A stretch of DNA of 64,000 nucleotides from Nymphaea colorata (lineage: Eukaryota > Streptophyta > Magnoliopsida > Nymphaeales > Nymphaeaceae), in NCBI RefSeq assembly GCF_008831285.2, contig NC_045148.1, forward strand, positions 1,304,001-1,368,000, written 5' to 3'. The notes beneath the pieces were generated by a model. It worked only from the letters and a program-made list of their open reading frames with translations. It was not told the DNA's origin and made no database searches. This document shows positions 6,531 through 63,439 of this stretch, piece by piece. Numbering within the stretch: position 1 is the stretch's first letter; each line of letters begins with the position of its first letter. The position numbers were made by a program, and so were the translations under genes.

Positions 6531-7057
6531 TCACTTTTTTTGAATTTTTTACTTTGGGGAAACTGCCTTAAGCTTAAAAGGCTCAAGACCATATCCTTAT
6601 GCTCGATTAATGCATACAAAACAGATAAATCTGTGATTTTCCTATATGGAAGGCACTTTTGTTGGCATGAAACTGCGCTCTAGTCTTAGAATTTCCATCT
6701 TTTCCAATGGCGTCTTTAGTACTTTCAATTGCTCCCAAAAAAGTAAAGCGACACGAAGCCAATTGAATATTTGATGAACACAAATATAAAACAGCAAGTG
6801 CAACAAATCATCGACAAAATACGCCTTTATACCTGCAACTTGTTCAACGACAAGGACTACTCCAAGCAGAGACCCAAAAGAGAAAACCACCGACCAACTA
6901 CGTAGTTTTCTATAAACCACTTAAAAAAAAACCACCCACTTGCACACAGAATCCAAGCCAAAAATATTACTAAAATATTAACAAAACTAACTGAATATAT
7001 ATAGTATTAAAAAAGATTGCATGTGATTCGAATGCCATCGAGTGGGTAGCCTTGCAC

Positions 7058-7067
7058 TTTAAATATG
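7058..7067 (+). promoter_or_regulatory. Putative TATA box of the SAUR gene
   Basis: The motif TTTAAATATG lies about 90 bp upstream of the SAUR ATG at 7156, a normal distance for a plant TATA box with a short leader. The disrupted SAUR copy on the right arm lacks a 17-bp segment that includes this motif, while the flanking bases are conserved. Confidence 0.5.
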
Positions 7068-7155
7068 TAAGCAAAAGTCCTCGTCTCTTGCTCTCTCATG
7101 CAACTAAAGTTTGCGGCCTTTCTGCTGAATCGCCTTCCTTCTTGATCTTTTGCCC

Positions 7156-7665
7156 ATGGATCCCAAGAAACCCAACAAGATCAGTGAGATCGTTCGCCTG
7201 CAACAACTGGTAAAGAGATGGAGGAAGCTAGCAAGCGCTCCCAAGAACGGTGGGAAGAAGAGCATAAGCTTTCTGAAGAGGACGCTCTCCTTCTCCGACT
7301 CGTCCAAGTTAGGAGACGTGCCCAAAGGGTACCTGGCGGTGTGCGTGGGGAAGGAGATGAAGAGGTTCGTCATCCCCACAGACTACCTCAGCCACTACGC
7401 CTTTGCTGATCTGCTGAAGGAGGCAGAGGAGGAGTTTGGGTTCCAAAACGAAGGGGCTCTGAGGATCCCCTGCGATACAGATGCCTTTGAAAAGATACTG
7501 AAGGTGGTGGAAGAAGATGATGGGGACAGCTTCTACGTGAGGGATCAGGGTGATGCCGCCGCTGCGTCGATGGGTGAGGAGATGGGAGTGTCCTGTGGGT
7601 CTCAGGCCGACGCCATTGCTGGCCTGGTTCGCTCTCATTCGCACCACAAGCCCATGTGTAGATGA
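7156..7665 (+). CDS. SAUR: SAUR family auxin-responsive protein, intact
   Basis: This is a 169-residue, single-exon protein of the plant SAUR (small auxin up RNA) family. The best-known family role is inhibition of PP2C.D phosphatases at the plasma membrane, which keeps H+-ATPases active and promotes cell expansion. A basic N-terminus (residues 1-45, rich in Lys and Arg) leads into the SAUR domain at about residues 55-120. The domain shows VPKGYLAVCVG, the RFVIPTDYL segment, EAEEEFGF and an IPCD motif. The C-terminal tail is Ser/His-rich. The ATG at 7156 fits the basic SAUR start; a TTG codon two residues earlier is not a plausible plant start. Lack of introns is normal for SAURs. The gene lies in the left arm of the inverted duplication, and its right-arm sister is disrupted at 28797-34177. 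A TATA-like motif sits about 90 bp upstream. Identity is secure; the subgroup is not assigned. Confidence 0.95.
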   Translation: MDPKKPNKISEIVRLQQLVKRWRKLASAPKNGGKKSISFLKRTLSFSDSSKLGDVPKGYLAVCVGKEMKRFVIPTDYLSHYAFADLLKEAEEEFGFQNEGALRIPCDTDAFEKILKVVEEDDGDSFYVRDQGDAAAASMGEEMGVSCGSQADAIAGLVRSHSHHKPMCR

Positions 7666-7943
7666 TCATCGTTCATGATGACAATTTACAGTAACTATAT
7701 ATGATAACCCTGATGTTATATGACTCTTCTCTCTTTCGCTAGGTCTCTCTCTTCCCCCCCTCCTTCCTGGTTGTATGTACATGGCGAAGGAAGCCATAAA
7801 CATTTTCAAATGAGCAATGAGTTTTGTGAATCAAGTGACTGATAATTGAGCATATTGTATTCTTGCTTCTTCTCTGTCTGTGTGTTGTGTGTTTGTAAGA
7901 TTTGTTTTTGGTCTTTCTGATTTGGTTGGTTTGCTGGTTTGGA

Positions 7944-9112
7944 GTTTGCGTTGAAGTCACGGGCAGCGTGTAGCTGTGTGACCATGTGCGTCGCCATTAA
8001 TCGCTCATAAATCACAGGCTGCACGAGAGATGCCATATGGGGAGATCTCCCAAGTTGTACCGCAATATCTACTCAGAAAGGGACGGCTCCTCCGCCACTT
8101 GCTGTGACTTTGTCTCGATCAGTGTCTCCCCAGAATATCGTTTCTCGTTGGCACTTCAAGCCACGAACCATTGATGACTTCTTGTATGATAAACAAGCGA
8201 CCAGATCTTGCAGAGTTCATCTTCTCTGTGTGCGTGTGCGTGCGTGCTTCATCTGTACGTGCTTTTTGGGTTGCATCTGATGCTGATCATGAACATCTTT
8301 TACGATGCGATGTAGAAAGATTTATTTGTTGAGGAAATAAAAAGGCAGGCCCTTGATAAATACGCACAAGGAATTCCTTTGGCTTTTAACATGCGATGGC
8401 CCCTGAATTGAAGTGCCAAACTTTTCCATATAAAACATCATGGGTTTATTTTAACTAAACCACGTCCAACTTCCAAGCAGGGGAAAAATAAACTTTTCAC
8501 CGAGGATTTAAATAGAGCAAGATATAAATATTGATGTCTTCATGTTTTTTCGTGGCCTATTGAAAGCATGAACGTCTGTGTATGTTAAGAGAGAGTGGTG
8601 CAGTGGATTGGCTTTTTTCGTGATAAAGTAATCATAAATGGAACATATTGGTATGAATCTATGCAGATTCATGAACACCTCCTCAACAGGGACGGAGTTA
8701 TGATTCTATAATTTCAAAATTTTAACTAGAATCAAAATAAAAAATTTTAAATTTTTTTATATAGGTGTTAAACTAAAATTTTTGAAAGTTTAAGAAGTTT
8801 TTAAAATTTAAGGGGACGTCTTACACCACTCTAGTGCTGAAAAAAAAAGGTGGAGATTTTGGAGAATCCATCCTTTTATTTTTCATCTTTAATTTTCCAG
8901 TGTAAAGGGATTTTCTTTTATTATAATAAGGTTATTATGGTGATCTTTCAGGCCAATGCACAAAACAAACAAGCTGGTAACATATGTCCCCACATGTCAT
9001 GTGTTCTGGACCTCTGGTGACAGAAATTACAATACTGTCTTGAAAAAATAAAAAAATAAAGAACTGCACCACTACCTAAACAAAATGTGAAAAGAAAGAT
9101 CTTTTCTATTTT
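7944..9112. other. Left-arm-specific intergenic block, no gene seen
   Basis: The right arm joins sequence matching about 7935 directly to sequence matching about 9113, so this 1.2-kb block is absent there. It contains a short GT-rich run near 8230, AT-rich DNA and a degenerate GGGACGGAG motif near 8690 resembling a MITE end. No ORF has a recognisable domain. Confidence 0.35.
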
Positions 9113-9835
9113 GTCCTCATGAGGGGGGCAAGGTGGTGCATTATATGTGAGAAATATATCTTCATAATTTCCAATTTTAAGTGAAAGAAATCAAATAAAA
9201 TAGGGTAACGGTTAGTAAAAAACTTAAATGAGTCAAGCTTGAGCCAAGACTCGACTCCATCTATTGAGTCAAGCTGATCATGTACAGCCTGCCTCCAGTG
9301 TTTTAGACAAACCAGACACGAACAACATATGAGTCGAGTGGACAGAGCTGGATCTTGACTTGGATCGTGTACAGCCCTAGTTATGTGAACCTAAACATCA
9401 GGTGAATTGACCTTGAGGCCGTGATTAAGGTGCCGTTTGATTCCACAAGAAAAGTTGGGAAATGGCGAGATCATGTCCCGTTTGGAGGTGAGCCCCATCG
9501 CGTAATATCAAGCACGGGACAGCAGAATGGGTGGAACACAGTGTTCCCCCGTCCAGAAGGCTCGTTCGGACGTACGTGTAGGATGCGAAGAGCATGTTGG
9601 ATGATTTTCTGGTGCACATCTGCAAGTACAATAAAAGTCGTCGGCAGCTCACAAATTTCCATGACCGTGTTTGCTTCTACTTTTGAAAAAATGAATGAAC
9701 GGTTTCATTACTAAAACCTGGACACGATGAGCCTCTCAATTTAAGGCGAAGCATTTACAAACGATGCCGCTTTCAAATTGGGCATCAAACTTAGTGGGTT
9801 CCTATTTTCTTCCCGACTGGGCTCTCTTCTCACGG

Positions 9836-15200: not shown

Positions 15201-15424
15201 GATCACCCATTTTAAATTTAACGACAGGCTTGTTCAAAAGCTACATTTTTGTATGCCTGCTACGTATAATTCTCTTGTAAATATAACAAACGCATATAAT
15301 CTTGACATGATGTTCTCATGCGTTTTTAGATCTTGCAAATACGTGAAAATTTGAAACTCTCAGGTGATTGGAGAGATAACAGATGTAAGGTGGTGGTGAT
15401 GGTGGTGTTGAAATATAGCGACAT
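11990..15424 (+). repeat. Repeat unit A (first of four diverged copies)
   Basis: AT-rich non-coding sequence that recurs in the same orientation at 22530-25740 (unit B), 43680-43900 with 46200-50140 (unit C), and in truncated form at 61055-62487 (unit D). At 14640-14690 it has the empty site that holds hAT-type MITEs in the other units. No supported gene is present; short ORFs such as 14595-14816 and 15326-15548 are not conserved between copies. Units A, C and D all lead directly into the UPF0496-derived foldback. Confidence 0.7.
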
Positions 15425-16482
15425 CATTGTTGAGTGTAAACCTAGAGCTGCTGGCATGCCCCTTTCTTCCCATCTCTCTCCCTCTCTTTCACCCGGTTTG
15501 CGTATGAACCCGTTATGCACGAACACGAAACTGGTTGGTGCAATGTAATGTGACCTTTCCTTTTATAATTTCTTTCGAAGTCAGTTGCCTACAGCACTCT
15601 GTGCACGCAGACTTTAGTTGGTGCATCCTCCTTTCACCCTTTTCTTTAACTATCTCATATGTCACAAATGCAATAGCAATCGATGGCACTACCTACAATA
15701 TGAGAACAATAATTCAGTCGGCTAAAGTACTTCTCACATACAGATGACAAACAGATAACTGTTGAAACAAACGGTACCACCAACCATGAACCTAAAGCTA
15801 CCATGGACAGGCAGCCATGACTTCATGCTGATGCATAGTAGTGACATGCACAAACATAGACAAGGCGTAAAACAGACAAGGTGATTCCTTTTGTAGGTCA
15901 TAAATAAGGATTAAAGACCTTTTCCTATATTGTTGGGGCATCACCCAGATTCAAAATGCTGAATTCTCAGATTGACCTACCCAACCAGCTAAATCGTTAA
16001 TCCTACGAAGTAGTTCTTAATGAGCAGACACACCAGCTGACAAATTTGCGATTCCCTGTCTGGGTCTTGTGCATGTTTGTCATGCTACCACCCATCTGTA
16101 AATCTCCTAATCCCTACCAAAAATTCGATAACAAGGGAAGCAAAATGCCTCCACATTCTTACTAACCGGCTGGTGGTACTGTTTGTTTCAAGAGAAATCT
16201 ATTTGTCATGAGATATCTATTTGTCATCTGTATGTGGAAAGCACTTTAGCCGGCTGAATTATTGTTCTAATATTGCACGTTGTGCCATCGATTTTTATTG
16301 CATTTGTGACATATGAGATAGTTAAAAGGGTGGGAGGAGGATGCACCAACTAAAGTTTGCTGCGTGCACAGAGTGCTCTAGGCAACTCACTCCGAAAGAA
16401 ATTATAAAAGGGACACCAACCAGTTTCATGTTCGCGCATAATGGGTTCATACGCAAACAGGGTGAGAGAGAGGGAGAGAGAG
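15425..16482. repeat. Foldback H1: inverted repeat derived from the UPF0496 5' region
   Basis: The left arm (about 15425-15780) is the reverse complement of the right arm (about 16180-16482, resuming after the copia insertion at 21444-21530). The arms share the marker GCAGACTTTAGTTGGTGCAT, a polypyrimidine tract, and sequence running up to the start codon of the UPF0496-like gene. A spacer of about 400 bp separates the arms here, much longer than in the related foldbacks at 50142, 50745 and 62488. The copia at 16483 is inserted into the right arm. Confidence 0.75.
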
Positions 16483-16765
16483 TGTGAAATATTTTTCTCA
16501 TGAGTATGGGCACGTTGAAGAGGAACAAGAAAAGAATGTTTATCAATGGAAGGTGATAATATTTTTATTAACAATTCAAGGTAATATATACAATGGGTTC
16601 ACAACGGTAAGGAGTGAGCTCTCCTTCCTTCACGTTAAAAGTTTTCCAAAGATACATTTGATATTCAAGGCAGGTTGAGTTGGAGAGCCTTGACATGAAC
16701 ATTGAAGTTGAGGAAGACGTTGAGATGGAATGCCGTTGGATTTGAACGTTGACTTTCTTTTAACA
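16483..16765 (-). repeat. 3' LTR of copia element 1, 283 bp
   Basis: Bounded TG...CA. Compared with the other LTR it has about 60 extra bases (roughly 16620-16680) and lacks the 15-bp tandem duplication seen there. Substitutions between the two LTRs number only two in about 220 aligned bases. Confidence 0.9.
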
Positions 16766-21201: not shown

Positions 21202-21443
21202 TGTGAAATATTTTTCTCATGAGTATGGGCACGTTGAGTATGGGCACGTTGAAGAGGAACAAGAAAAGAATGTTTATCAATGGAAGGTGATAATATTTTT
21301 ATTAACAATTCAAGGTAATATATACAATGGGTTCACAACGGTAAGGAGTGGGCTTGGAGAGCCTTGACATGAACGTTGAAGTTGAGGAAGGAAGACGTTG
21401 AGATGGAATGCCGTTGGATTTGAACGTTGACTTTCTTTTAACA
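21202..21443 (-). repeat. 5' LTR of copia element 1, 242 bp
   Basis: Bounded TG...CA. It contains a 15-bp tandem duplication (GAGTATGGGCACGTT, about 21220-21250) that is absent from the 3' LTR and lacks the latter's extra 60 bp. Confidence 0.9.
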
Positions 21444-21890
21444 GAGAAAGAGATGGGAAAGAAGGGGCACGCGAGAAGGGGCACGCGAGCAGCTCTACGT
21501 TTAGACTGGACAATGACGATGATGATCTCTTCCAAGAGCTTCGCCGCTTCCTCAAGATAATAGAGCCATAGAGGAATCTCGCCGCTCAGTCCGTGGCGTT
21601 TCCGTCAACGTCGTCATCCGTTCGGTGTCCCTCATCGATGACTTCAACCGGCAAACTATGATGGAGCTGCGACATGATGGGGGCCTCCTGGCCGGTCATT
21701 CAGGAAGATAAATTCATCGACATTTTTTTGGGAAACCGTGCACACCAACATGAAGAGAACGAACGAAGAGCTCGATGGCCTACTAGCGGCCCTCCAGGAG
21801 CCGCTCGCTGAAGCGTTCGCTACATCCGAAAACGCCATCGATGACTTCTCCTTCTCTGCTCGCGTGCCTCTTCTTACCAAAAACTGACCC
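21444..21890 (+). pseudogene. UPF0496-like gene fragment A (N-terminal part only)
   Basis: This matches the first 80 or so codons of the UPF0496-like copy at 26570-27544, starting at the ATG near 21516, but it is badly broken. It has the 8-bp insertion CCATAGAG that shifts the frame and creates a stop (shared with copies C and D), extra bases around 21658-21690, and a deletion after about 21715. It then jumps to the GAGCCGCTCGCTGAAGCG region before losing homology near 21840. A 16-bp duplication of an AAGGGGCACGCGAG motif lies just upstream (about 21470-21492). It is cut from its promoter-like arm by copia element 1. Confidence 0.75.
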
Positions 21891-26569: not shown

Positions 26570-27544
26570 TCAATTCAAGTACTTGTTCCTTCTGCCTTCG
26601 ATGTTGTTCTTGCTCAACTCGACTTTCTTTATCGATTTGTTAATGGAGCGGATCACCAGGCATAATTCGTTCTGGAGGCTTTCCTTTATCTGAATCATCT
26701 GAAGCAGCTCCTCACTAGAGTGCCCGTTGTCTAACACCTCTTTCAACTGGTAAACCAACGAGTACATCGGCTGTAAGTCACGCAGCACGTATGCCTTATT
26801 GAACTCCACAGGCTGCAGCATGGTACAGAGGTCCTTCCCCTGCTGCAACTCATTCAACTTTACCATCCCTAGCTTGTCCACCCACAAGGCCAACGGCTGC
26901 CAACTCGCTGCTGATGTCGCTGCTGCAACAACGCTCGCACATACAGGGCCGGCATGCAGCGCGGCCGCTATAATTGAACAAACCGAAGCAACAAGAACGA
27001 AGCCGGCATAAATAGCGGAGACGGCCTTCTTGAGCCATTTCAGCCTTCTGAACTTCCTCTCTAGTGAAGCCCCCTTCTGCTTGACCTTCTTCATGATGTT
27101 TTCGTGATGCTTCAACCAGCCGCGGAACGACTCCAGGAGTCGCTCGCTAAAGCGTTAGCTACATCCGAAACGCCACTGCTTATCTAGTACTATTATCTCC
27201 TTCTTCTCCTCCCGGTGCCCAGACGGCTTCCACTGCAGTAGGGCCGCTAGCAGGCCATCGAGCTCTTCGTTCAAGTTCTTCATGTTGGTGAGTACGGTTT
27301 CCAAGAAATCCTCGGTTTCGTAGCAGAGCTCAAGGAAGCCTTTCGTAAGGCAGGAGAGGAATTTATCTTCCTCGATGACCGGTCAGGAGGCCGCATCATG
27401 TCGCAGCTCCATAGTTTGCCGGTTGAAATCATCGATGATGGACACCGAACGGATGACGAGGTTGACGGAAATGCCATGGCCGGAGCGGCGAGATTCCTCT
27501 ATTATCTCGAGGAAGCGGCGAAGCTCTTGGATCATCACCGCCAT
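26570..27544 (-). pseudogene. UPF0496 (DUF677, AT14A-like) protein gene, copy B, two in-frame stops
   Basis: This is the most complete UPF0496-like copy: 324 codons from ATG at 27544 to the stop at 26572-26570, all in one frame and interrupted by TGA at 27385-27383 and TAA at 27157-27155. The part after the second stop shows the family hallmarks. A basic segment (KFRRLKWLKKA) leads into a hydrophobic hairpin rich in Ala/Val, then a tryptophan-bearing WVDKLGMVKLNELQQGKDLC stretch and a C-terminal coiled-coil-like region. Family members are plant proteins of poorly known function; AT14A has been linked to integrin-like wall-membrane contact. Copy C has Trp at the first stop position. The gene has a 5' flank related to the foldbacks and lies inverted relative to unit B. 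The first part (residues 1-140) is less clearly family-like, and an upstream exon may be missing. Confidence 0.8.
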
Positions 27545-27740
27545 TGTCGAGTGTAAACCTAGAGCTGTTCGCTTGCCCCTTCCTTTCCATCTCTCTCTCC
27601 CTCTCTTTCACTCTGTTTGCGTATGAACTATTATGGTTGGTGTCCCTTTTATAATTTCGATTCGGAGTGAGTTGCGTACAACACTATGCGCACGCAGACT
27701 TTAGTTGGTGCATCCCCCTCCCACCCTGTTCTTTAGCTGA
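27545..27740 (-). repeat. Single arm of the UPF0496 5' region (no foldback)
   Basis: This block upstream of copy B matches one arm of the foldbacks at 15425, 50142, 50745 and 62488, including the polypyrimidine tract and the GCAGACTTTAGTTGGTGCAT marker. No second arm is present. It shows what the un-inverted UPF0496 5' flank looks like, and so which way the foldbacks arose. Confidence 0.7.
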
Positions 27741-28037
27741 TGCTTGGAAGCTTCGGTCTGAAGCTTGGTATATATAGCCATACTTTGTAGGTTCATACGA
27801 GCTTTCTGGACGGAGAAACAAGGTGTTCCACACATTCTGCTGTCCCGTGCTTGATATTAGGCAATGGGGCTCACCTCCAAACGGGACATGATCTCGCCAT
27901 TTCCCTACTTTTCTTGTGGAATCAAACGGCACCTTAATCAATCAAGGTCCGAACTGTTAAGTCACCACGGCCTCAAGTAAGAAGTAAGGTCAAGTCACCT
28001 GATGTTTTATACATGTTAATCCAGGATCACGTATAAT

Positions 28038-28421
28038 TAGGGCTATATACGATTCAAGTCAAAATCGAGCTCTGTTGACTTGACTCATTATCTTGCTCGT
28101 GTCTAGTTTGTCTAAAAACTGGAAGCAAGCTGTATAAGGTCAGCTTAAGCTTGACTCAATAGACCAAGTCAAGCACTTGGCTGGAGCTTAACTCATTTAA
28201 GTTTGTTTACTAACTCCTTATTTAACTTGATTTCCTTCACTTACAACTGAAAATTATGAAAAAAAAAGATAAACCCAAATTAAACAAGTTAAATCCAGCG
28301 ATCTACACTCATGTAGCTCGAACTTGATTAATTTACAAGCTCGAATTTTTAGTTAAACTTGAACTCCAATGAACCGAGTATGAGTTGAGCTGGAGTTGGT
28401 TGAACTAGTTGTACAGCTCTA
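28038..28421. mobile_element. hAT-type non-autonomous element, 384 bp
   Basis: Flanks CGTATAAT (28030-28037) and CATATAAT (28422-28429) form an 8-bp target duplication with one mismatch. Ends are TAGGGCTATA and TGTACAGCTCTA. The interior repeats words such as GAGCTTAACTC and has no ORF. A truncated homologue lies in the left arm around 9190-9380, so insertion predates the inverted duplication. Confidence 0.65.
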
Positions 28422-29164
28422 CATATAATGTTATATGCTCAAGTGATTGATTTTGTCAGCATATCAGTGGTACAATGCTCACATACAATACACGACCCTG
28501 CGCCCCTCATGAGGACAAACCAGCAAACCAAGTAAATCAGAAAGAACAAAAACAAATCTTATGAACTCATAACACACACACAGAGAAGAAGCAAAAATAC
28601 ACTATGCTCAATTATCAGTCACTTGATTCACAAAACTCATTGCTCATTTGAAAACGTTTATGGCTTCCTTCGCCTTGTACATACAACCAGAAAGGAAGGA
28701 GCGAGAGAGACCTAGCGAGAGAGCGAGAGAGAGGATAGTCATATAACATCAAGGTTATCATATACAGTTGCCGTAAATTATCATCATGAACGATGATCAT
28801 CTACACATGGGCTTGTGGTGCAAACAAGACGAACCATGCCAGCAATGGAGACCCACAGGACATTCCCATCTCCTCACCGACGCAGCGGCAGCATCACCCT
28901 GATCCCTCACGTGGAAGCCGTCCCCATCATCTTCTTCCACCACCTTCAGTATCTTCTCAAAGGCATCTGCATCGCAGGGGGTCCTCAGAGCCCCTTCGTT
29001 TTGGAACCCAAACTCCTCCTCTGCCTCCGTCAGCAGATCAGCAAAGGCGTAGTAGCTGAGGTAGTCTGTGGTGATGACGAACCTCTTCATCTCCTTCCCC
29101 ACGCACACTGCCAGGTACCCTTTGGGCACGTCTCCGAACTTGGACGAGTCGGAGAAGGAGAGCG

Positions 29165-29169
29165 TCCTC
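29165..29169. repeat. Target-site duplication, left, of copia element 2
   Basis: TCCTC, identical to 34051-34055. Comparison with the intact SAUR at 7156-7665 shows a single copy of these bases at the insertion point. Confidence 0.92.
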
Positions 29170-29417
29170 TCTTGAAGTTGGGGAAGATCGTAGTTGAGAG
29201 AGAAGGACCGACTGGAGACGTAAGGTAACAGAGAAACAGGGAGAAAGGGCCAATGTTATGCGAGGGATTAAAATCCCGTATTCTTATTTATCATATATAT
29301 ATATACAGTGTAACTCAGATGTATATACATGTATGAGACCCATTGTCAATGGGATACAGCTGTAGACAACTATATTACAGCTGTTTATTCTAAACTTTCT
29401 AGGCAAACCTCCTAACA
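29170..29417 (-). repeat. 3' LTR of copia element 2
   Basis: 248 bp, 99.6 percent identical by eye to the other LTR. Contains an AT-rich promoter-like stretch (TATATATATATA) near 29293. Confidence 0.95.
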
Positions 29418-29428
29418 TTCTCCCCCTC
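29418..29428 (-). other. Polypurine tract of copia element 2
   Basis: Minus strand GAGGGGGAGAA abuts the 3' LTR. The polyprotein stop codon (29429-29427) overlaps it. Confidence 0.88.
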
Positions 29429-32400
29429 AAGTTAGATCTTCCAAATTCTGAAGACCTAACTTGCAGCATAACTTGTGAAATGTATCTTTACACACAGCTT
29501 TGGTTAGAATATCTGCAAATTGGTTCCTTGAGGCAACATGTTCTGTTTTTATGATTCCTGATTGAATTTTCTCTGTAAGAAAGTGACAGTCTACTTCAAT
29601 GTGTTTCGTTCGTTCATGAAACACAGGATTATTTCCAATGTAAATTGCAGCCTTGCTGTCACAGAAGAGGCTTATTGGCTGTTCTACATTCATCTTCATA
29701 TCCTGTAGCAAGTATTTTATCCATAGCAATTCACACACAGTGAGAGCCATTGCTCGATATTCACTTTCTGCGCTTGATCTGGCCACGACCGTTTGTTTCT
29801 TACTCCTCCAAGAGACTAAATTATCACCAACGAAACAACAGTAACCAGTGGTTGATCTCCTGTCATCTTGATTTCCTGCCCAGTCAGCATCTGCATATCC
29901 ATATATTTGAAGATGATTGTTTCTTCTAAACGTGATGCCCTTGTTACTTGTCTTCTTAAGATACCTGAGCACATGATGGGCAGCTTCTACATGAGGTTTT
30001 CTGGGGCTGTGCATAAACTGACTTAGCAAATTTACTGCGTAAGTGATATCTGGTCTAGTAGCTGTCAAGTATAGCAATTTACCAACTAACTTCTGAAAAC
30101 TTCTTGCTTCATCTATTAGCTCTCCGCCATCATGCATCAACTTCAAGTTTGTTTCCATTGGAGTATCGGCTTCTATGCAATCTGTCATTCCTGTTTCATG
30201 TAGCAGGTCTGCAACATATCTTTTTTGACACACGAATATGCCTTTTGGTTTATGTATTATTTCCATGCCAAGGAAATAGTGTAATACTTCTAGATCTTTG
30301 ATCTCAAAGCATTTCCTCAAAACTTTCTTGGTTTTTTCAATAAAACTCAGATCTTCTCCCGTTAAAATTATATCATCAACGTAGATAGCAGCAATGACTG
30401 TTCCCTTATTGGTAGATGCTACAAATATAGAATGATCAGCACTACTCATCTTATATCCTCCTTCAATCAGTTTTGAGCTCAACTTTTCATACCACGCCCT
30501 GGGCGACTGCTTAAGCCCATATAGTGACTTCTTTAATTTGCACACCTGTGATTGAGTACCATGTTGAACATGTAGTCCTTGAGGTAATTCCATAAAGATC
30601 TCTTCTTCTAAATCTCCGTGAAGAAAAGCATTCTTCACGTCAAGTTGATACATTTTCCAATTCTTTACTGCAGCTACTGAAAGTAATATTCGTAATGAGC
30701 TCATCTTTGCAACCGGGGCGAACGTCTCATGATAGTCAATGCCTTGTTCTTGTGTAAAGCCCTTCGCTACCAGTCTTGCCTTGTAGCGCTCCACCTGCCC
30801 ACTACTGTCATACTTGATTTTATATGTCCATTTGCAGCCAATCAATTTTTTGTTTGGGGGTCTATTTACTAGTTCCCAGGTCTGATTTTTTTCCAGGGCA
30901 GCTAATTCCTCATGCATTGCTTTCCTCCATTTATCTTCAGTGTTAGCTTCTTCATAAGTATGTGGTTCTCTTTCATGGCAGGGAGCTATGTTGACTTTGT
31001 CGTTTTTCTGGACATGATATGTATAGTAGTCATTATATCTGGCTGGTCTTCTTCTTATGCGGTCAATCCTTCTATTTTGAGCACTTTCAGCCACACCCAC
31101 CTCCAAGTGGGAGTTGGTGCTTGCTTCTTCATTAGCCAAACTGGTTCCAGATATTACCAATGCATCATCATTTTCATTTGCTATTGGAAGAGGTATAGCA
31201 GGCATGAGATCATTGTCTGGGTCATTCTCCCCCTTGCTGAAAGCATCTGATATAGTTTCAGTGTAGAAAGGTGTATTTTCCATGAACTTGACGTCTCTAG
31301 ATACATACATCTTTTTTCTTATAGGGTCATAGCACTTGTATCCTTTCTTGTTAAAGGAATACCCTAGAAACACACACTTAACAGCTCGTCTTTCAAGCTT
31401 GTGTCTTGAACTTTCTTGTACATGAACATAACACACACATCCGAAAACTCGTAAGTGTTGTAAAGAAGGGGGTCTATCATTCAAGATTTCTAATGGGCTC
31501 TTGTTGCCTAGTCTGTGGCTCGAGGTTCTATTCATGACATGGCAAGCACAGGCCACTGCTTCACACCAGAATTGTGAAGGAACATTCATGTAAAACATTA
31601 GAGATCTGGCGATGTTTAGCAATTGTCTATTTCGTCGTTCACTTACCCCATTCTGTTGAGGAGTACCCCTACAAGTGGTTTGATGTAATATTCCTTGTTT
31701 GTTTGTGAATTCCTCAAATTCTGCATTAATATATTCTCCTCCATTGTCTGACCTCAATGTCTTAATTGTGTGATTGTACTGAGTGACTATGTACTGAAAA
31801 AATTGCTTAAACGTAAGAAATACATCGCTTTTCCTTTTCAAGAAATAGATCCAGGTGGCTCGAGATTTGTCATCTATGAAAGTAACAAAGTATTTATATT
31901 CAGAATGTCCAGTTATGGGGGCTGGTCCCCAGACATCAGTATGTATCAAGTCAAAACATGACTCAGCAACATATTCAGAGTCTGTAAAAGGCAACCTGGT
32001 CATCTTAGCCAGGGTACATGCCTCACAATCATCTACTAAGAATCTAGAACCTGGAAACATATTCAACAGGACCTTATTGGAGGGATGACCCACTCTGCAG
32101 TGCCATATGCGAGCATCACTGGCAGTTTTTATTGCAGTGTATACACTGGAGTTGTGCTCTTGAGTCAAGTAGTACAGGCCATTTTCCTCTTCACATTCAC
32201 CAATCTTCGTCTGATTCTTGCTGTCTACTAGTATCACCTTTTTTCCAACAAAAATTATATAGCAGCTCAGAGTATTACTCAGTTTGCTAACAGATATCAA
32301 GTTTGTTGTGCACTTAGGCACATACAACACGTCTTGCAAAGTAATATGTTGATTTATGTAAACAGAGCCATATCCTACTGCAGATGTGGTCGACCCATCA

Positions 32401-33551
32401 GCTAGTTTTACAGATATATGTTTATCATACTTGACATTATGTAACAGTTCTAAACAAGCAGTCATATGGTCTGTAGCTCCACTGTCGACTATCCATGCTG
32501 AGTTATTGGAACGAGCCAAGAAAGAGCAAGGTAACGGGTTTGAAGTCTTACCTGTTTTTGTTCCTAGTTTAGTTGTAATAGCAAGATTGCTGCAGGTGAT
32601 TTGTTTGAGCAAACGTGTAAGTTCAGCAATGTCACCTTCACGTCTGAGTCCAGCATTACGAACTTGTCCTCTCCCTCTGTTTGGACGGCCATTCAGGTTC
32701 CAACAACATTCCCTACTGTGGCCTTGTTTTTTACAGTAAGTACAGAACAGAGAATTTCGTCCTCGACCGAACCTGGTATCTACTGTGAAGTTGTTCTTGT
32801 CTCTTGGAGCAATATGAGATGTTTCTGTCTTAGCGACAAATGCAGCCTTGTCAGCAGGCGCATATTCTTTTTTGAAGTCGTCTTCAGTCTTCATGACTTT
32901 TCGCCTGGTTTCTTCTCGTTGTATGATAGAACAAACATTGTTGAAGGACGGGAGAGGGGAAGACATGAGAATCTGACTTTTTAGATAGTCAAACTCTACC
33001 CCTAACCCAGCGAGAAGCTTGAACACTTTATCTTCGTCAGCTCTCTGTTTCAGTACTTCCATATCAGGAACGAGGGGACGATATTGGGATAATTCATCCC
33101 ACATCGCTTTAAGGGAGCTTAGATATACGTGAAATGGCTTCTCTCCTTTGGTGACTCGTGCGATATCCTATTGCAGAAGATAGACCCTGGCCAGGTTTTG
33201 GCCTTCACCATAGATCTCCGCTAAGGTGTCCCAGATCTCTTTGGCCGAATCCAAGAATAGGAAGCTCTCGGCGATGGTGGGCTCCATTGAATTTAGCAAC
33301 CAAGACATTACAACTCGATCGTTAGCTTCCCATTCTTCATAACTCAGATCATCTTTCTCAGGAGCTGTAATCTTGCCATTGATATAGCCTATTCTTGACT
33401 TTCCACAGAGGTATAAGCTTGCTGATTTCGCCCAAACCACATAGTTTCCACCGTTGAGAGGTGCTGTGGTGATCTTGAGAGCCGGATCTGATTCCTTCAT
33501 GATTGCTTTTACAATAGAGATTTGGGGGTTTTGGTTTTCTGATTCTGCCAT
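29427..33551 (-). pseudogene. copia element 2 gag-pol, one amber codon in gag
   Basis: A single frame of 1,374 codons runs from ATG at 33551 to TGA at 29429-29427, interrupted only by TAG at 33170-33168 (codon 128, in gag). In order it shows a gag domain, a CX2CX4HX4C zinc knuckle (CTYC near 32744), the aspartic protease motif DSGATDHM near 32485, and integrase with HHCC plus catalytic Asp, Asp and Glu residues (DVWGP, RSDNGGEY, GVSERRNRQ). Reverse transcriptase follows with YVDD near 30370, then RNase H ending in DILTK. Length and order are those of a complete Ty1/copia polyprotein. Whether the amber codon is a mutation or is read through is not decidable here; the downstream context is not the known CARYYA type. 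The first long uninterrupted frame starts at 33104. Confidence 0.95.
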
Positions 33552-33790
33552 CGCTGCTGAGAATCCCTTGATCTGCAGAATCCACGCTCACCGCACCAGT
33601 TGGGAAGCTGAGACCAGAAAGCCGAGCCCTAGCCTGTCGGTTCCTTCCTCTTTTTGTGCAGGAACAAAAAAACCCTAAACTTTCCCTAAACTTTGGGAAT
33701 CCGTCGACGTCTACAGAAACCTTGACATGGAGGACCTGTAGCTTGATCAGCTGTAGGTGTTCACGCCTGTCCTTGAGTTTCAGCCTGCTG

Positions 33791-33802
33791 GCTCTGATAC
33801 CA
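33791..33802 (-). other. Primer binding site of copia element 2
   Basis: Minus strand TGGTATCAGAGC, complementary to the initiator Met tRNA 3' end, directly next to the 5' LTR with no spacer. Confidence 0.94.
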
Positions 33803-34050
33803 TCTTGAAGTTGGGGAAGATCGTAGTTGAGAGAGAAGGATCGACTGGAGACGTAAGGTAACAGAGAAACAGGGAGAAAGGGCCAATGTTATGCGAGGGA
33901 TTAAAATCCCGTATTCTTATTTATCATATATATATATACAGTGTAACTCAGATGTATATACATGTATGAGACCCATTGTCAATGGGATACAGCTGTAGAC
34001 AACTATATTACAGCTGTTTATTCTAAACTTTCTAGGCAAACCTCCTAACA
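33803..34050 (-). repeat. 5' LTR of copia element 2
   Basis: 248 bp. On the minus strand it opens TGTTAGGAGG at 34050 and is followed by the primer site at 33802. Confidence 0.95.
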
Positions 34051-34055
34051 TCCTC
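34051..34055. repeat. Target-site duplication, right, of copia element 2
   Basis: TCCTC, identical to 29165-29169. Confidence 0.92.
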
Positions 34056-37000
34056 TTCAGGAAGCTTATGCTCTCCTTCTCACGGTTCTTGGGGGCGCTT
34101 GCTAGCTTCCTCCATCTCTTTACCAGTTGTTGCAGGCGAACGATCTCACTGATCTTGTTGAGTTTCTTGGGATCCATGGGCAAAAGATCAAGAAGGAAGA
34201 CGATTCAGCAGAAAGGCCGCAAACTTTAGTTGCATGGGAGAGCAAGAGACGAGGACTTTTGCTTACATACCCATTCGATAGTATTCGAATCACATGCAAT
34301 CTTTTTTAATACTATATATATTCAGTTAGCCATGTTATTATTTTAGTAATATTTTTGGCTTGGATTCTGTGTGCAAGTGGGTGGTTTTTTTAAGTGGATT
34401 ATAGAAAACTACGTAGTTGGTCGGTGGTTTTCTATTTTAGGTCTCTGGTTGGAGTAGTCCTTGTCGTTGAACAAGTTGCAGGTATAAAGGCGTATTTTGT
34501 CGACGATTTATTGCACTAGGTGTTTTATATTTGTGTTCATCAAATATTCAATTGGCTTCGTGTCACTTCATTTTCTTGGGAGCAATTGAAAGTACGAAAG
34601 ACGCCATTCGAAAAGGATGGAAATTTAGAGACTATAGCGCAGTTTCATGCCAAAAAAAGTGCTTTTCATTAAGGGAAGTCACAGAATTATCGGTTTTATA
34701 CGCATTAAACGAGCAGCACTGTGGTTAGTATTTAAGGGCTTTGAGGTTCGAAACTTCTTGAGCCTAAGTCTCAAGCAAACCAAAATCTAAGAAGCAAAAG
34801 ATACTGTCTTGAGCCTTATAAGCTTAAGGCAGTTTCCCCTAAGTAAAAAATTCAAAAAAAATGAGGCTTTCAGGTGGATGCCCTAGAAATTATCACCAGC
34901 ACCGTCACTTTGATCTCAGCTTCTTCGCTTTCAACTGGCCTTCCGCTACACACTGATCATCCAATGCCATAACTTGGACTAACATAATATTTTTCAGTTA
35001 CATATCTTCACAAATTATCTTCTTGGACCCTTTTTGTTTAGCGTACTTGTAATTACGATTTCAACTATCTGTTCTGGAGCTGCAATCCGTATAGCATATT
35101 GATTTATTTTTTGATCGGTCTTTAGTAATTAATGCAAGCTTGTGAAATCCGATCACATCCAAGTTAAATTTGGTTTTTGATAATAAAAAATGGATGGGCA
35201 ATCGAAGATAGGCCAGGGGAAAGACGATGCAGAAATTTTGTTGAAATGGATAAGATTGAGTTATAATGAATTGTATTATCCGAGAAATTTAAATTTATTA
35301 GTACACAAGAAACTGATCCTAATCTAGATCATAGTTAATGAAACTAAAAGATGAAAACTTCAACTTGGTTAAGAAAAAGAAATGGAACTTGGGTATCGAT
35401 GTTTCACATGTTCTGGTTAATTTGGAATTCAAACATTGCCCCTTACATTGGTGGACAAACATCTATTTTTGTTCTCTCACATATACTTTGTTCATATTAG
35501 TATTGGGTGAGTAGGAGAATATCATTTTATTCTACCGCTTAGAAAAAAAGTTGAAGTTCCCACCCAACCCCTCATTTCTTTAAGATACATGGTCTACTTT
35601 TTGTGCCTAGGATGCCTTCTACTTTTTGTGCCTAGGATGCCTCTCCCGTTACGTTTCAACTTGCATGTCGACCACCTTCCTTTTAGAAGACAAAGAGTTC
35701 AAGCCCTGAGTATTCAAAATGGAGACAAGCAGTCCACTTCCCACCCTGTCCAATGTGCCAATCCCCATGGCGATTAGTTCGTCTTAGTACTGGGAGTTCA
35801 TTGTTTTACAAGGAACGTAAGAAAAGGGTCCATCAACTGATGGATTCTGCCTCAGACAAAGCAAGAAATCCAAATTTGGATCAAGAAATTAAATAGGAAA
35901 AAAGTGTAGATTAATTCTCAATTTGATATATTTTATTATAGAATATTAATTTGTTATGAAAGGTATTATCCAAGCCTAAACATTATTGGTGTCGAAATAC
36001 TGTCTGTACATCAACATGTGATCACATGGCACGTGCCCAGTGGACATGGAAGCCCTGTGATAAGGAAACTAAATTAAAGAAGTGAAAAAAGCTAGTTGTT
36101 TTAGTCACTGGATGTTTAGATCTGAAATTCCAAGTTTCACAACCTGATATTTTAAAGGCAGCCATATGTTATCCTCTTATAGCACTAACAAGTTCATTCA
36201 GTGGGTAGGGAGGAAGCACCTCAATACCAGCAGGATAGCTGATTAAAATACTATTGAGTTCTCTTCCCAGCATGAAGTACACTAACTTCGTACTTGTTGC
36301 AAAAGATGCTCTCCGTGGATTTTAGACTCTACAAATGCCTTAATTATATATCAACTTGGTTATATTCATATATCAAAATTATGAGATGAGAAAGGTAAGC
36401 TCATGTGAATTAATAACATAATCTTTTTCTTCACCACTCCATGGTTTAATATGATCATAGTACATACATATGAGCTGGATCAACTGAACCCCATAGAATT
36501 TGGTTTCATGGCTGGTTGATTTGTACTCCAACATGTCCGGCCTATGTGCAGAGTTCAATTGGCAAATAAACAAAGTAAAATTTTGTGACCAGTGCTAATA
36601 AATTAAGTTCTTGGCCAAGCTACTGATTCCGGGTATTCTTTGGCGATTCAGCTGAATTGGACAAGGTGAATCAGCAGAAATATTAACAAATTTATTTACT
36701 GGAAATTAAAAGCGTCAATGGGAAAACATATGGATAATTTTAAAAATAAAAAAGACTCTTAAAAATATTTAAAATTTCTGAAAAAGTAATGCGTATGGGT
36801 GGCACACTGTTGAATCATTTCATAACGCTTGAGGAACTGCACTGCGTTTCCATTTTTCTTCTGCCCGCAGGAATTCAATGATCAGACCCTAATTTGCGGA
36901 TTGAAGGCAACCTGCTCATTTACCATGTGCAGCTACAAGCATCTAATGAGGGATCTTGTTTCCTTTGAAAGAGGTCTTTCTGATTATGAGGCAAAATTTA

Positions 37001-37509
37001 TATTCATGCTTTTATTAGTAGTGATCACCTTGCATGATTTCCAGAGATACAAAGTCCAAGTTGGTTGTGTGACTTTTCGTAGGTAAAGAAGAGCATGTCC
37101 CATATAAGGAAAATCAAAATCTAGAAAAAAAAAAAGTCTCAGGTTTTGTTTTATAGCCTCGGATCTGATTGAAGGCCATGCAAAGCCATGCTAAATGAGA
37201 TCCACCGTGTAAACAAACAGGGGATCTGATATCGCTGCTACGTGCAAAATTAAAAGCGTATCAAGAACACCCTCAATGTGACTGGGTCCTTACAATTGAA
37301 ATATCTATACAACAAAGTAGTGAAATATAAATGGAATTTGAATTGGAAAAGAAGGGCCAATATGTGACATGGTGATCAAATTAATTAAACGACATAGCAA
37401 CGATATAGATTTGGACATTATTGATTGGTAGAGGCCTCTCTTGAAGACCCAGCAGGTTTGACAAGGTTTTCTATTGACAGCTTATAAAACATTAAAAAAC
37501 TATACCATA

Positions 37510-38440: not shown

Positions 38441-38861
38441 GGGTCATCATATGATGTGTGGTTGACAAGTTTACTCAGAAATATGCTAGATGCACGCACA
38501 AGTGTAGCCTATGAAAGGGCACTTCTTCCGTGTGTGAACCCTTCTCTCAAATCGGAGATGCTAATGGTTTGTTGCTTTCATGACAACTAGGCGAAGTGGA
38601 CTATGCAAGCTGCAAAGCGAGGATGTTCAAGGCTGCCACTGCTACTACGTACGATTAGCCAGCCTTGTAGATGTAAAAGGATTCGACGTTCCCCTATATC
38701 TTCTTGGGTAGATAATCAAACGTCTTTCATTTTAGCCATGCCAGCTCGATGGAAGCCTCAGAAGAGTGGATTTATGTGAGTATATAACTGCGTGAGTGAA
38801 GGTCCCTCTCCCTCCTCTCTCTCTCTCTCAATTTGTCGAACCTCTTTGGGAGAGCAAAAAA

Positions 38862-39278
38862 ATGTGCTGCCCCGTAGCCGCCATGATTTGGATTAAGGGA
38901 GTTGCAGCAGCCGTCCTTTCTTTTGTTCATCGCCTATCATCACTCGTTCAACAGGCCATCAACATGCTTCCTCGATATCCAGATCCTGATTGCACTGAAG
39001 CACGTCTTCCAGGAAGTGGAGGTTCCCTCCCGACCAAATCCAACCGAGACGAGAAGCTCACCTCGTGGGCCAATGTCAACTTGATTATACAAATAAAAGA
39101 CTATAAATGTTACCATTGTGTCCATTTCCTCTACATTGGCCCACAAGGTGAGCTTCTCGTCTCGGTTGCATTCAGTCGGGAGGGAACCTCCACTTCCTGT
39201 GTAAACCGGAAGACGTGCTTCAGTGCGATCGGGATCTGGATATCGAGGAAGCATGTTGATGGCCAATTGAACGAGTGA
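38862..39278 (+). CDS. Hypothetical ORF in the left palindrome arm
   Basis: An ATG-started ORF of 138 codons running through the loop into the other arm. The first 70 or so residues are mirrored in the ORF on the opposite strand (38940-39356) with mostly conservative changes. It starts MCCPVAAMIW, has a hydrophobic amphipathic stretch to about residue 30, then a Pro/Arg-rich part. No known family is recognised. The second half is just the reverse strand of the other arm, so if anything is translated, only the first part is likely meaningful. Confidence 0.25.
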   Translation: MCCPVAAMIWIKGVAAAVLSFVHRLSSLVQQAINMLPRYPDPDCTEARLPGSGGSLPTKSNRDEKLTSWANVNLIIQIKDYKCYHCVHFLYIGPQGELLVSVAFSREGTSTSCVNRKTCFSAIGIWISRKHVDGQLNE

Positions 39279-39356
39279 TGAGAGGCGATGAACAAGAAAA
39301 AGGATGGCTGCTGCAACTCCCCTAATCCAAATCATGGCGGCTACGGGGCAGCACAT
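38940..39356 (-). CDS. Hypothetical ORF in the right palindrome arm
   Basis: Mirror of the plus-strand ORF, 138 codons from ATG at 39356, opening MCCPVAAMIWIRG. It differs from its partner at scattered positions (K to R, V to I) and by a 3-residue insertion in the TGSGGS region, without breaking the frame. That pattern might hint at past constraint on the peptide, but two arms of a palindrome can also homogenise by conversion. Function unknown. Confidence 0.25.
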   Translation of the reverse strand: MCCPVAAMIWIRGVAAAILFLVHRLSSLVQLAINMLPRYPDPDRTEARLPVYTGSGGSLPTECNRDEKLTLWANVEEMDTMVTFIVFYLYNQVDIGPRGELLVSVGFGREGTSTSWKTCFSAIRIWISRKHVDGLLNE

Positions 39357-39446
39357 TTTTTTGCTCTCCCAAAGAGGTTCGACAAATTGAGAGAGAGAGA
39401 GGAGGGAGAGGGACCTTCACTCACGCAGTTATATACTCACATAAAT

Positions 39447-49451: not shown

Positions 49452-50141
49452 GCTGTGTGAAAGAGATTGTTTTTCTTTGTATTTTTTATTTGTAATTGAC
49501 TCTGGTTCAAAAAGAAAAGGAACAGTTTGTGGCCCCACTAAAGGCAAATTTATTTATTTATACCAATTATAAAGATCGTCAATATAGATAATAAATCTAA
49601 CAGATGAGTATTATCAGTGGCATATATAACAACAAAATCCTGACTTTTCATTTCTTCTAGTAAAAAAAAGGAAACAATTTGTTTCCCCATCAAAGGAAAA
49701 TCTACATATACCTAATTATCAATTATGAAGACTGCCAAAATAGATAATGAATCTAACAATGACTCTAACATTAAAGGAGACAAATAAAATCGTCGGAGGT
49801 TCTCCATTTTCATTTGTTGTAGCACTATTTAAATGCACCTCGCCCATCGATTATTATCAACCACTAGATGACCGAATGCATCACACCATCAATCATTCAC
49901 ACTGCTTTCATTCAACTAGATCCGATCAGCCATTTTAGATCCAACGACAGGCTTGTTCAAAAGCTACATTTTTGTAGGCCTGCTACGTATAATTCTCTTG
50001 TAAATATAACAAAATCATATAATCTTGACATGATGTTCTCATGCGTTTTTAGATCTTGCAAATACTTGAAAATTTGGAACTCGCAGGTGATTGGAGAGAT
50101 AACAGATGTAAGGTGGTGGTGATGAAGGTGTTCAAATATGC

Positions 50142-50640
50142 CTAGAGCTGCTGGCGTACCCCTTCCATCCCATCTCTCTCTCCCTCTCTTCCACCTGGTT
50201 TGCGTATGAACCCATAATTCGCGAACACAAAACTGGTTGGTGCAATGTAATGTGACCTTCCCTTTTATAACTTCTTTCGTAGTGAGTTGCCTACAGCACT
50301 TTGTGCACGCAGACTTTAGTTGGTGCATTCTCCTTCCACCCTTTTCTTTAACTATCTCATATGTCACACATGCAATAGCAATAGATGGCACTACCTGCAA
50401 TATTAGAACAGTACTTCAGCCGGCTAAAGTACTTTCCACACACAGCCGGCTGAATTATTGTTCTAATATTGCATGTTGTGCCATCTATTGCTATTGCATT
50501 TGTGACATATGAGATAGTTAAAGGGTGGGAGGAGGATGCACCAACTAAAGTTTGCTGCATGCACAGAGTGCTGAAAGAGAGGGATAGAGAGAGATGGGAA
50601 AGAAGGGGCATGCGAGCAACTCTAGGTTTACACTCGACAA
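50142..50640. repeat. Foldback H2 from the UPF0496 5' region, right arm truncated
   Basis: The left arm starts at about 50142 and the centre lies near 50445. The right arm lacks about 95 bp between GAGTGCT and GAAAGAGAG near 50572. ORFs spanning it on either strand (for example 49957-50400 and 50237-50512) are arm shadows, not genes. Confidence 0.75.
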
Positions 50641-50750
50641 TGACAATGATGATCTCTCCCAAGAGCTTCGCCGCTTCCTCAAGATAATAGAGCCATAGAG
50701 GAATCTCGCCACTCAATCCATGGCGTATGATGATCTCTCCCAAGAGCTTC
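50630..50750 (+). pseudogene. UPF0496-like N-terminal scrap between foldbacks H2 and H3
   Basis: About 120 bp matching the start-codon region of copy C (the CAAGAGCTTCGCCGCTTCCT word and downstream). It carries the CCATAG insertion and ends where the next foldback arm begins. It marks a tandem duplication of foldback plus gene start. Confidence 0.65.
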
Positions 50751-51305
50751 GCCCCTTCCATCCCATCTCTCTCTCCCTCTCTTCCACCTGGTTTGCGTAT
50801 GAACCCATAATGCGCGAACACAAAACTGGTTGGTGCAATGTAATGTAACATTCCCTTTTATAACTTCTTTCGGAGTGAGTTGCCTACAGCACTCTGTGCA
50901 CGCAGACTTTAGTTGGTGCATTCTCCTTCCACCCTTTTCTTTAACTATCTCATATGTCACACATGCAATAGCAATAGATGGCACTACCTGCAATATTAGA
51001 ACAGTACTTCAGCCGGCTAAAGTACTTTCCACACACAACCGGCTGAATTATTGTTCTAATATTGCACGTTGTGCCATCTATTGCTATTGCATTTGTGACA
51101 TATGAGATAGTTAAAGAGTGGGAGGAGGATGCACCAACTAAAGTTTGCTGCATGCACAGAGTGCTGTACACAACTCACTCCAAAAGAAATTATAAAAGGT
51201 ACACCAACCAGATTCATGTTCGCGCATAATGGGTTCATATGCAAACATGGTGAAAGAGAGGGATAGAGAGAGATGGGAAAGAAGGGGCATGCGAGCGACT
51301 CTAGG
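50745..51305. repeat. Foldback H3 from the UPF0496 5' region
   Basis: Two arms of about 260 bp meet near 51035 with a very short loop. Almost identical to H4 at 62488-63094, and in tandem with H2. Confidence 0.8.
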
Positions 51306-51688
51306 TTTACACTCGACAATGACAATGATGATCTCTCCCAAGAGCTTCGCCGCTTCCTCAAGATAATAGAGCCATAGAGGAATCTCGCCGCTCAGTTCAT
51401 GGCATTTCCGTCAACTTCGTCATCCGTTCAGTGTCCCCCATCGATGACTTCAACCGGCAAACTATGGAGCTGCGACATGATGCGGCCTCCTGGCCGATCA
51501 TCGAGGAAGATAAATTCCTCTTCAACCTTGCTAGAGGCTTCCCTGACCTCAGCTTTGAAACTGATAGTGTTTGGGAAATCGTGCACACCAACATGAAGAA
51601 CTTGAACCAAGAGCTCTATGGCCTACTAGCGGCCCACCTAAGTGGAAGCCAACTGGCCATCGGGAGGAGGCGAAGGAGATAATAGTAT

Positions 51689-54387: not shown

Positions 54388-54990
54388 ACAGATAAGCTAT
54401 GGCATTTTCTGATGTAGTGAATGCTTCAGCGAGCGGCTCCTAGAGTCATTCGGCGGCAGATTGAAGCATCATGAAAACATCATGGAGAATGTCCAGCAGA
54501 AGGGGGCTTCGCTAGAGAGAAAGTTCAGAAGGCTGAAATGGCTCAAGAAGGCCATCTCCACTATTTATGCCGGCTTTGTTCTTGTTGCTTCAGTTTGTTC
54601 AATTATCATGGTCGCGCTGCATGTCGGCCCTATATTTGCGAGCATTGTTGCTGCGTGTTGGCAGCCGTTGGCCTTGTGGGTGGACAAGCTATGGATGGTA
54701 ACATTGATTGAATTGCAGCAGGGGAAGGACCTCTGTACCATGTTGCAGCCTATGGAGTGCAATAAAGCATATGTGCTGCATGACTTCCAGCCAATGTACT
54801 CATTGGTTTACCAATTGAAAGAGGTGTCAGAGAACATGCACTCTAGTGAGGAGCAGCTTTGGATGATTCAGATAAAGGAAAGCCTCCTGAACAAGTTATG
54901 TCTGGTGATCGCTCCATTAACAAATTGATAAAGAAAGTCAAGTTGAGCAAGAACAACATCGAGCGCAGAAGGAACAAGTACTTGAATTAA

Positions 54991-55262
54991 ATAAAGGAGG
55001 GCGTGTTGGTGAATCAAGCAGCGAAAGACAAAAACTTCTTATGCACCTTACATAAACTCTAATCCCAGTATCCCGACAGAATAATTTGGTCCTACTCGTT
55101 ATCAATGGGACTTACTAAGCATCTGTTTGCTGTTGTAATAGTCGATTTCGTGGTATCAAGCTGACTTTGGGCATCATCGCTGGCCCATCTTTCTTTTCAC
55201 TGCTCCACATATGAATATCTTGAGAAAGGTTAATTGATCTCTCTCTCTCTCTCTCTCTCTCG

Positions 55263-62487: not shown

Positions 62488-63094
62488 TCATTGTCGAGTG
62501 TAAACCTAGAGTTGTTGGCTTGCCCCTTCCATCCCATCTCTCTCTCCCTCTCTTCCACCTGGTTTGCGTATGAACCCATAATGCGCGAACACAAAACTGG
62601 TTGGTGCAATGTAATGTAACATTCCCTTTTATAACTTCTTTCGGAGTGAGTTGCCTACAGCACTCTGTGCACGCAGACTTTAGTTGGTGCATTCTCCTTC
62701 CACCCTTTTCTTTAACTATCTCATATGTCACACATGCAATAGCAATAGATGGCACTACCTGCAATATTAGAACAGTACTTCAGCCGGCTAAAGTACTTTC
62801 CACACACAACCGGCTGAATTATTGTTCTAATATTGCACGTTGTGCCATCTATTGCTATTGCATTTGTGACATATGAGATAGTTAAAGGGTGGGAGGAGGA
62901 TGCACCAACTAAAGTTTGCTGCATGCACAGAGTGCTGTACACAACTCACTCCAAAAGAAATTATAAAAGGTACACCAACCATATTCATGTTCGCGCATGA
63001 TGGGTTCATATGCAAACATGGTGAAAGAGAGGGATAGAGAGAGATGGGAAAGAAGGGGCATGCGAGCGACTCTAGGTTTACACTCGACAATGAC
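62488..63094. repeat. Foldback H4 from the UPF0496 5' region
   Basis: Arms 62488-62790 and about 62811-63094 are reverse complements, starting and ending at the UPF0496 start-codon region (CATTGTCGAGTGTAAACC and its complement). The loop is only about 20 bp. It is nearly identical to H3. Confidence 0.85.
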
Positions 63095-63439
63095 AATGAT
63101 GATCTCTCCCAAGAGCTTCGCCGCTTCCTCAAGATAATAGAGCCATAGAGGAATCTCGCCACTCAATCCATGGCGTTTCCGTCAACGTCATCATCCGTTC
63201 GGTGTCCCTCATCGATGACTTCAACCGGAAAACTATGGAGCTGCGACATGATGCAGCCTCCTAGCCGGTCATCGCGGAAGATAAATTCTTCTCCAACCTT
63301 GTGAGAGGCTACCCTGACCTCAACTTCGAAACTAACAAATTTTGGGAAACCGTGCACACCAACATGAAGAACTTGAACCAAGAGCTCTATGGCCTACTAG
63401 CGGCTGAGCATTGGGAGTAGGCGAAGGAGATAATAGTAT
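63084..63439 (+). pseudogene. UPF0496-like gene fragment D (N-terminal part)
   Basis: Matches copy C from the start-codon region to the copia insertion point, with the shared CCATAGAG frameshift, a TAG near 63263 where copy C has Trp, and a shortened end before the LTR. Confidence 0.75.

Follow-up and report, generated by a model that had tools for sequence, protein, structure and literature searches.

Palindromic foldbacks of UPF0496/DUF677 5′ ends around a mitochondrial-carrier gene fragment in Nymphaea colorata

Do palindromes made of the 5′ ends of a gene constitute loci for hairpin RNA? The question is raised by a stretch of 64,000 nucleotides from Nymphaea colorata (C11:1304001-1368000, hereafter the window), in which the initial annotation recognized foldbacks of a UPF0496-like gene at four places and proposed that transcription through them could give double-stranded RNA, which would make them potential hairpin-RNA loci. 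A published account from rice describes inverted pairs of paralogous pseudogenes that form hairpin RNAs, with small RNAs mapping to the duplex (PMC2708354). Furthermore, the inverted-duplication model of MIRNA birth, as set out for rice (PMC3237417), needs both a transcript spanning the foldback and complementarity to the parent gene. The present analysis points to another reading, to which we give a probability of roughly three in four: the foldbacks would be relics of one divergent pair of UPF0496/DUF677 5′ ends that enclosed a carrier-gene fragment, captured and inverted, and was subsequently copied locally. They look like genomic debris, poorly arranged for making silencing RNA. This reading builds on the content of the arms, their outward orientation, the carrier-derived centre, the grouping of left and right arms, the common flanks and the broken genes, all of which can be read directly from the DNA. 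Genome-wide searches covered the same assembly (408 Mb in 783 contigs), whose contig labels, such as C1, C3 and C8, are not chromosome numbers.

Composition and orientation of the foldbacks

Inverted arms were found at all four of the annotated places, here called A, C, D and E. The left arm of foldback E (62488-63093) occupies positions 62488..62709 on the minus strand and is the reverse complement of a UPF0496 promoter, leader and first ~18 codons, with a TATA-like site at 62625-62634 (minus strand). The centre of E (62710..62887) consists of two inverted pieces, of ~80-100 nt, of a mitochondrial-carrier gene fragment, and the right arm (62888..63093, plus strand) comprises a UPF0496 promoter (TATA-like site at 62961), leader, start codon (63044) and first ~17 codons. 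The corresponding UPF0496 remnant (63044..63420, plus strand) has an early stop after KIIEP and is without its 3′ half. In foldback A (15424-16482) ~450 nt separate the arms. Its left arm (15424..15643, minus strand) is followed by a centre (15643..16326) composed of a carrier-gene fragment (15643-16167) and an inverted copy of the first ~160 nt of that fragment, and its right arm (16327..16482, plus strand) is interrupted by an LTR element ending near 21443. The arm resumes at 21444..21795 (plus strand), together with a UPF0496 remnant, A′, that starts at 21453; the place originally given for A was thus right and its length was not. Pieces of the two LTRs (16483-16765 and 21202-21443) are 89.5% and 94.4% identical, and since an element with diverged LTRs was inserted into it, A is not young. 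Foldback C (50141..50643) has an internal deletion of ~86 nt in its right arm, which measures 121 nt as compared with 207 nt in E. Foldback D (50746..51305) goes with a UPF0496 remnant whose 5′ part lies at 51273..51687 (plus strand) and whose 3′ part lies at 54390-55040. The simple, unmirrored form that had been assigned to copy B was borne out: B is a UPF0496 pseudogene (26570..27738, minus strand) with an unmirrored 5′ flank (27542-27738) and without the carrier fragment. A further UPF0496 copy, F, lies beyond the window on C11 and has retained only the left arm.

The outer arms are made of the core promoter, 5′ leader and first ~17-18 codons of a UPF0496/DUF677 gene. Membership of this family is documented by the PF05055 profile, which scores 30.8 bits at 26570-27115 and 29.8 bits at 54461-54928, above the Pfam cut-off of 29.1; E, as a 5′ fragment, lies outside the scored stretches. 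Three paralogs on C8 start with ATGGGGAAC or ATGGGAAAC (MGN...), and the equivalent start in E is ATGGGAAAG at 63044. The arms, earlier thought to end at the ATG, thus extend ~50 nt into the coding region, and the ATG near 63092 is an internal one in another reading frame. A TATA-like TTATAAAAGG is located ~80 nt upstream of the start codon. It is found on the plus strand in the right arms of A, D and E and on the minus strand in the left arms of A, C, D and E and in B; it is also kept in F, and the site has been lost from the right arm of C. When the flanks of the three C8 genes were aligned, a clear TATA counterpart, TTATAAATGG, was visible in one of them (L006).

According to the TATA-like sites and start codons, both promoters of each palindrome face outward, away from each other. 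Transcription starts ~30 nt downstream of a TATA box, so each transcript would include ~95 nt from a single arm and nothing from its partner; neither promoter should transcribe both arms. In addition, the early stop after KIIEP recurs in A′, D and E, the three gene copies of right arms that were read, so the break in the right gene probably predates copying of the unit. Stops are also present in pseudogene B. Searching the genome with PF05055 yielded 17 places, 15 of them outside C11, and several of those on C3, C6, C8 and C9 are without internal stops.

In each arm the innermost ~80-160 nt are not UPF0496 flank, and neither is the spacer of A; both derive from a mitochondrial-carrier gene. 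The inner segment of A (15643-16326) has a single relative outside the cluster, C1:39620377-39620943, which is 87% identical to it along 525 of the 688 bases used as query and straddles the boundary between the last intron and the last exon of the carrier gene. This last exon (VVPSIAIAFVTYEIVK) continues in C1 with DVLGVEMRISD, followed by a stop, and the C1 exon just upstream of the match scores 84 bits with PF00153. Foldbacks C, D and E retain only 80-100 nt of each carrier half, and the fragment is absent from B, which continues into its own upstream DNA, and from F, which continues into a P450-like palindrome. A transposon with terminal inverted repeats was also considered for the centre and dropped, the sequence being that of a carrier gene with one place elsewhere in the genome.

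Fold stability and silencing targets

The predicted RNA folds of the foldbacks are very stable: -540 kcal/mol for A, -308 for C, -382 for D and -436 for E, versus shuffle means of -263, -136, -144 and -155, respectively (15 shuffles each). A separate run on E (62488-63093) gave -435.6 kcal/mol versus a mean of -158 (z -37), and none of 20 shuffles was equally good. All four are thus far more stable than shuffled sequence, a property that is asked of hairpin-siRNA and MIRNA loci. An RNA spanning both arms would indeed form a near-complete hairpin, as first proposed.

Targets were sought by comparing exact matches with 17 UPF0496 loci on C3, C6, C8 and C9, a set that covers all 15 PF05055 places outside C11 together with three further C8 places. 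No exact 21-mer, the length of an siRNA, was common to any of the four foldbacks and these 17 loci of the parent family outside the cluster, and the longest exact match was 16 nt. The foldbacks have 5-11 21-mers in common with pseudogene B and 41-137 with the carrier locus on C1. Judged by exact matches, any hairpin RNA produced would thus find its counterparts in the carrier gene and the local pseudogenes and not in the other UPF0496 genes.

The foldbacks might still be hairpin-siRNA or proto-MIRNA loci if read-through transcription spanned both arms and the diced RNAs acted on the UPF0496 copies of the cluster or on the carrier gene. The stability of the predicted folds and the 21-mers common with B and with C1 would suit such loci, and inverted pseudogenes of rice that yield hairpin small RNAs provide a precedent (PMC2708354). 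As in the rice pairs, inverted pieces of paralogous pseudogenes are present whose joint transcript would fold; unlike in those pairs, to whose duplex small RNAs map, the arms in N. colorata are outward-facing promoters. The foldbacks resemble the starting point of the inverted-duplication model in that a piece of a gene is mirrored, and differ from what the model requires in that all 17 UPF0496 loci are without a common exact 21-mer (PMC3237417). The outward direction of the arms' own promoters, the lack of any such 21-mer in the outside loci and the early stop common to the right-arm gene copies read all speak against hairpin loci of this kind, which we regard as improbable, and neither a hairpin transcript nor silencing of UPF0496 genes was supported.

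If the foldbacks have a role as DNA at all, it would be that of two back-to-back core promoters with short outward transcripts and not that of a hairpin-RNA gene. This arrangement resembles divergent gene pairs with a bidirectional promoter, from which it differs in that both halves duplicate one promoter and in that the genes are broken or deleted. Hairpins built from gene sequence, even near-perfect ones, are not necessarily small-RNA loci; the features that decide are the direction of the duplicated promoter and whether the arms are matched by each other or by the corresponding sequences at other loci. No Rfam family matched at gathering level within the window.

History of the arms and origin of the foldbacks

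The two arms of each palindrome differ: left and right are identical at 89% of 202 aligned columns in E, at 86% of 173 in D and at 93% of 152 in A. A 16-nt block is present in four of four left arms and in F, and is absent from B and from the three right arms that reach the site. A 3-nt CAA insert characterizes all four right arms and occurs in none of the left arms, in B or in F. Since the left arms have one indel state and the right arms another, each common to the copies, a head-to-head event would have come first and local segmental duplication afterwards. From the earlier description of a 5′ flank mirrored on itself up to its ATG, the UPF0496 5′ content is thus retained, and both the ATG limit and the separate self-mirroring of each palindrome are corrected.

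The arm tree points the same way, with some reservations. It comprised nine rows, the right arm of C being excluded for its deletion, and placed the five left-type rows on one side of a branch (support 73/75). Constraining the two arms of E to group together was rejected (AU p 9e-8), and the same constraint for A was borderline (p 0.048). The three right arms were not one clade in the best tree, and a constraint joining them was not rejected (p 0.112). The arms of the carrier fragment are likewise split into left versus right (85/83), C1 falling on the right side. The borderline value for A, the placement of the right arms and the limited support for the left-type rows would also fit a more complicated history or partial gene conversion. 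Moreover, two C8 genes seem to carry a counterpart of the 16-nt block; the right arms and B may therefore have its deletion in common, and the two kinds of arm may go back to a pair of source copies that had diverged beforehand. Upstream flanking DNA is common to A, C, E and F, and downstream flanking DNA is common to D and E, in both cases far beyond the palindromes.

A search of the genome for further copies, which the initial annotation had recommended, returned arms only in the C11 cluster among the matches listed: 11 of the 12 fall within one 66-kb stretch of C11, the twelfth is the inner carrier-gene piece only, and these counts are lower bounds. A dispersed foldback transposon or MITE was ruled out by this distribution, in which the matches listed include no dispersed copies at independent sites, and by the flanks, which are common to several units and at E show no target-site duplication by eye.

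Pack-MULEs and other Pack-TYPE transposons carry gene fragments between inverted repeats. A transposon of this type, whose terminal inverted repeats had taken in UPF0496 5′ sequence and whose interior held captured fragments (carrier in A to E, P450-like in F), would account for the inverted repeats of ~210 nt and for what they enclose; captured fragments of other genes were indeed found, both inside the foldbacks and beside F. The likeness ends with the dispersed copies, which are missing among the matches listed, and with the target-site duplication, none being visible by eye at E. The left junction is identical in A, E and F, so one ancestral site could be assessed for such a duplication. 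The right arm, furthermore, continues in frame into UPF0496 coding sequence, as in the C8 genes, and a Pack-MULE-type origin appears unlikely. That the palindromes are assembly or library artefacts is barely conceivable: inverted copies are a known type of chimera, but the arms differ at 7-14% of aligned columns and by indels common to the copies, and an LTR element with diverged LTRs has been inserted into A.

A divergent pair of UPF0496 5′ ends copied locally could have come about in a few steps. Break-repair or template switching may have joined a UPF0496 promoter to the carrier fragment, possibly through a short match of the UPF0496 flank and the carrier exon (CTTTAGCT in B, CTTTAACT in the foldbacks and C1), and a fold-back or template-switch step would then have made the inverted half. 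The left gene body would have been lost, leaving ~18-20 codons, and the right gene would already have been broken when local copying of a unit several kilobases long produced A, C/D and E. Genome debris is known to include pieces of pseudogenes that have been inverted, copied segmentally and combined with captured fragments. The cluster offers a dissected example in which gene fragments of different origin appear to have been joined into palindromes and later spread via segmental duplication; no published account of such a structure was found in the open-licence literature, as judged by titles and abstract openings.

Other palindromes in and around the window

Palindromes whose arms measured 100 nt or more and whose spacer was at most 700 were counted in an extended region of 83.9 kb, which gave seven entries at six places and of three unrelated kinds. 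Twenty control pieces of 9 kb (180 kb, at positions chosen by the authors) gave four entries (L019, L023, L024 and L029), among which L024 is a repetitive element with 257 matches and L019 is low-copy. With three kinds in 83.9 kb versus four control entries in 180 kb, a palindrome hot spot was not shown. The control palindrome L019:1897-2915 (C1:15001897-15002915) spans 1019 nt, is 93% identical to its own reverse complement, and is matched over about half of its length at a single further place in the genome, which lies on C4.

Two palindromes unrelated to the UPF0496 foldbacks appear to have the opposite polarity. The first, at 38770-39446, is 677 nt long, with 88% inverted self-identity and a predicted fold of -592 kcal/mol. 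It is made of a gene 5′ end with a TATA-like GTATATAA and a start near 38863, and by eye its promoters would be outermost and face inward. Its relatives lie on C5 at 2.96-2.98 Mb, and nine 21-mers are common with the one C5 locus compared. The second, L003:7613-8181 (C11:1385513-1386081), lies ~18 kb past the window and adjoins copy F. It derives from the 5′ end of a gene that we take to encode a P450, from the look of the protein; a 110-aa piece of this protein had no match in Pfam. The fold has a z of -44, the promoters would face inward (by eye), and stretches of up to 62 nt are identical to C11:10.50 Mb, with which 106 21-mers are common.

The hairpin-RNA idea would fit these two palindromes better than the four foldbacks, and the inverted-duplication route to hairpin-RNA genes could be tested better on them. 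A broader proposition, which we consider speculative and rather doubtful, is that palindromes arise in this genome from low-copy fragments of genes copied from elsewhere, without transposon ends, and that promoter orientation acts as the switch between silencing locus and debris. It would draw on the three kinds in the extended region (UPF0496 plus carrier, the 5′ end with relatives on C5 and the P450-like 5′ end) and on the similar low-copy palindrome L019 among the controls. If it were true, a palindrome with promoters at its outer ends would from its origin be a complete hairpin-RNA gene directed against its donor, and one with promoters inside, as in A, C, D and E, would not.

The window also contains a large inverted duplication, 3226-9565 versus 27797-37332, in which pieces are 76-90% identical and which includes, at 7150, a gene that is presumably SAUR-like. 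The right copy (27797-37332) is split by an element that by eye is of the copia type, with LTRs at 29170-29422 and 33803-34055 that are 99% identical.
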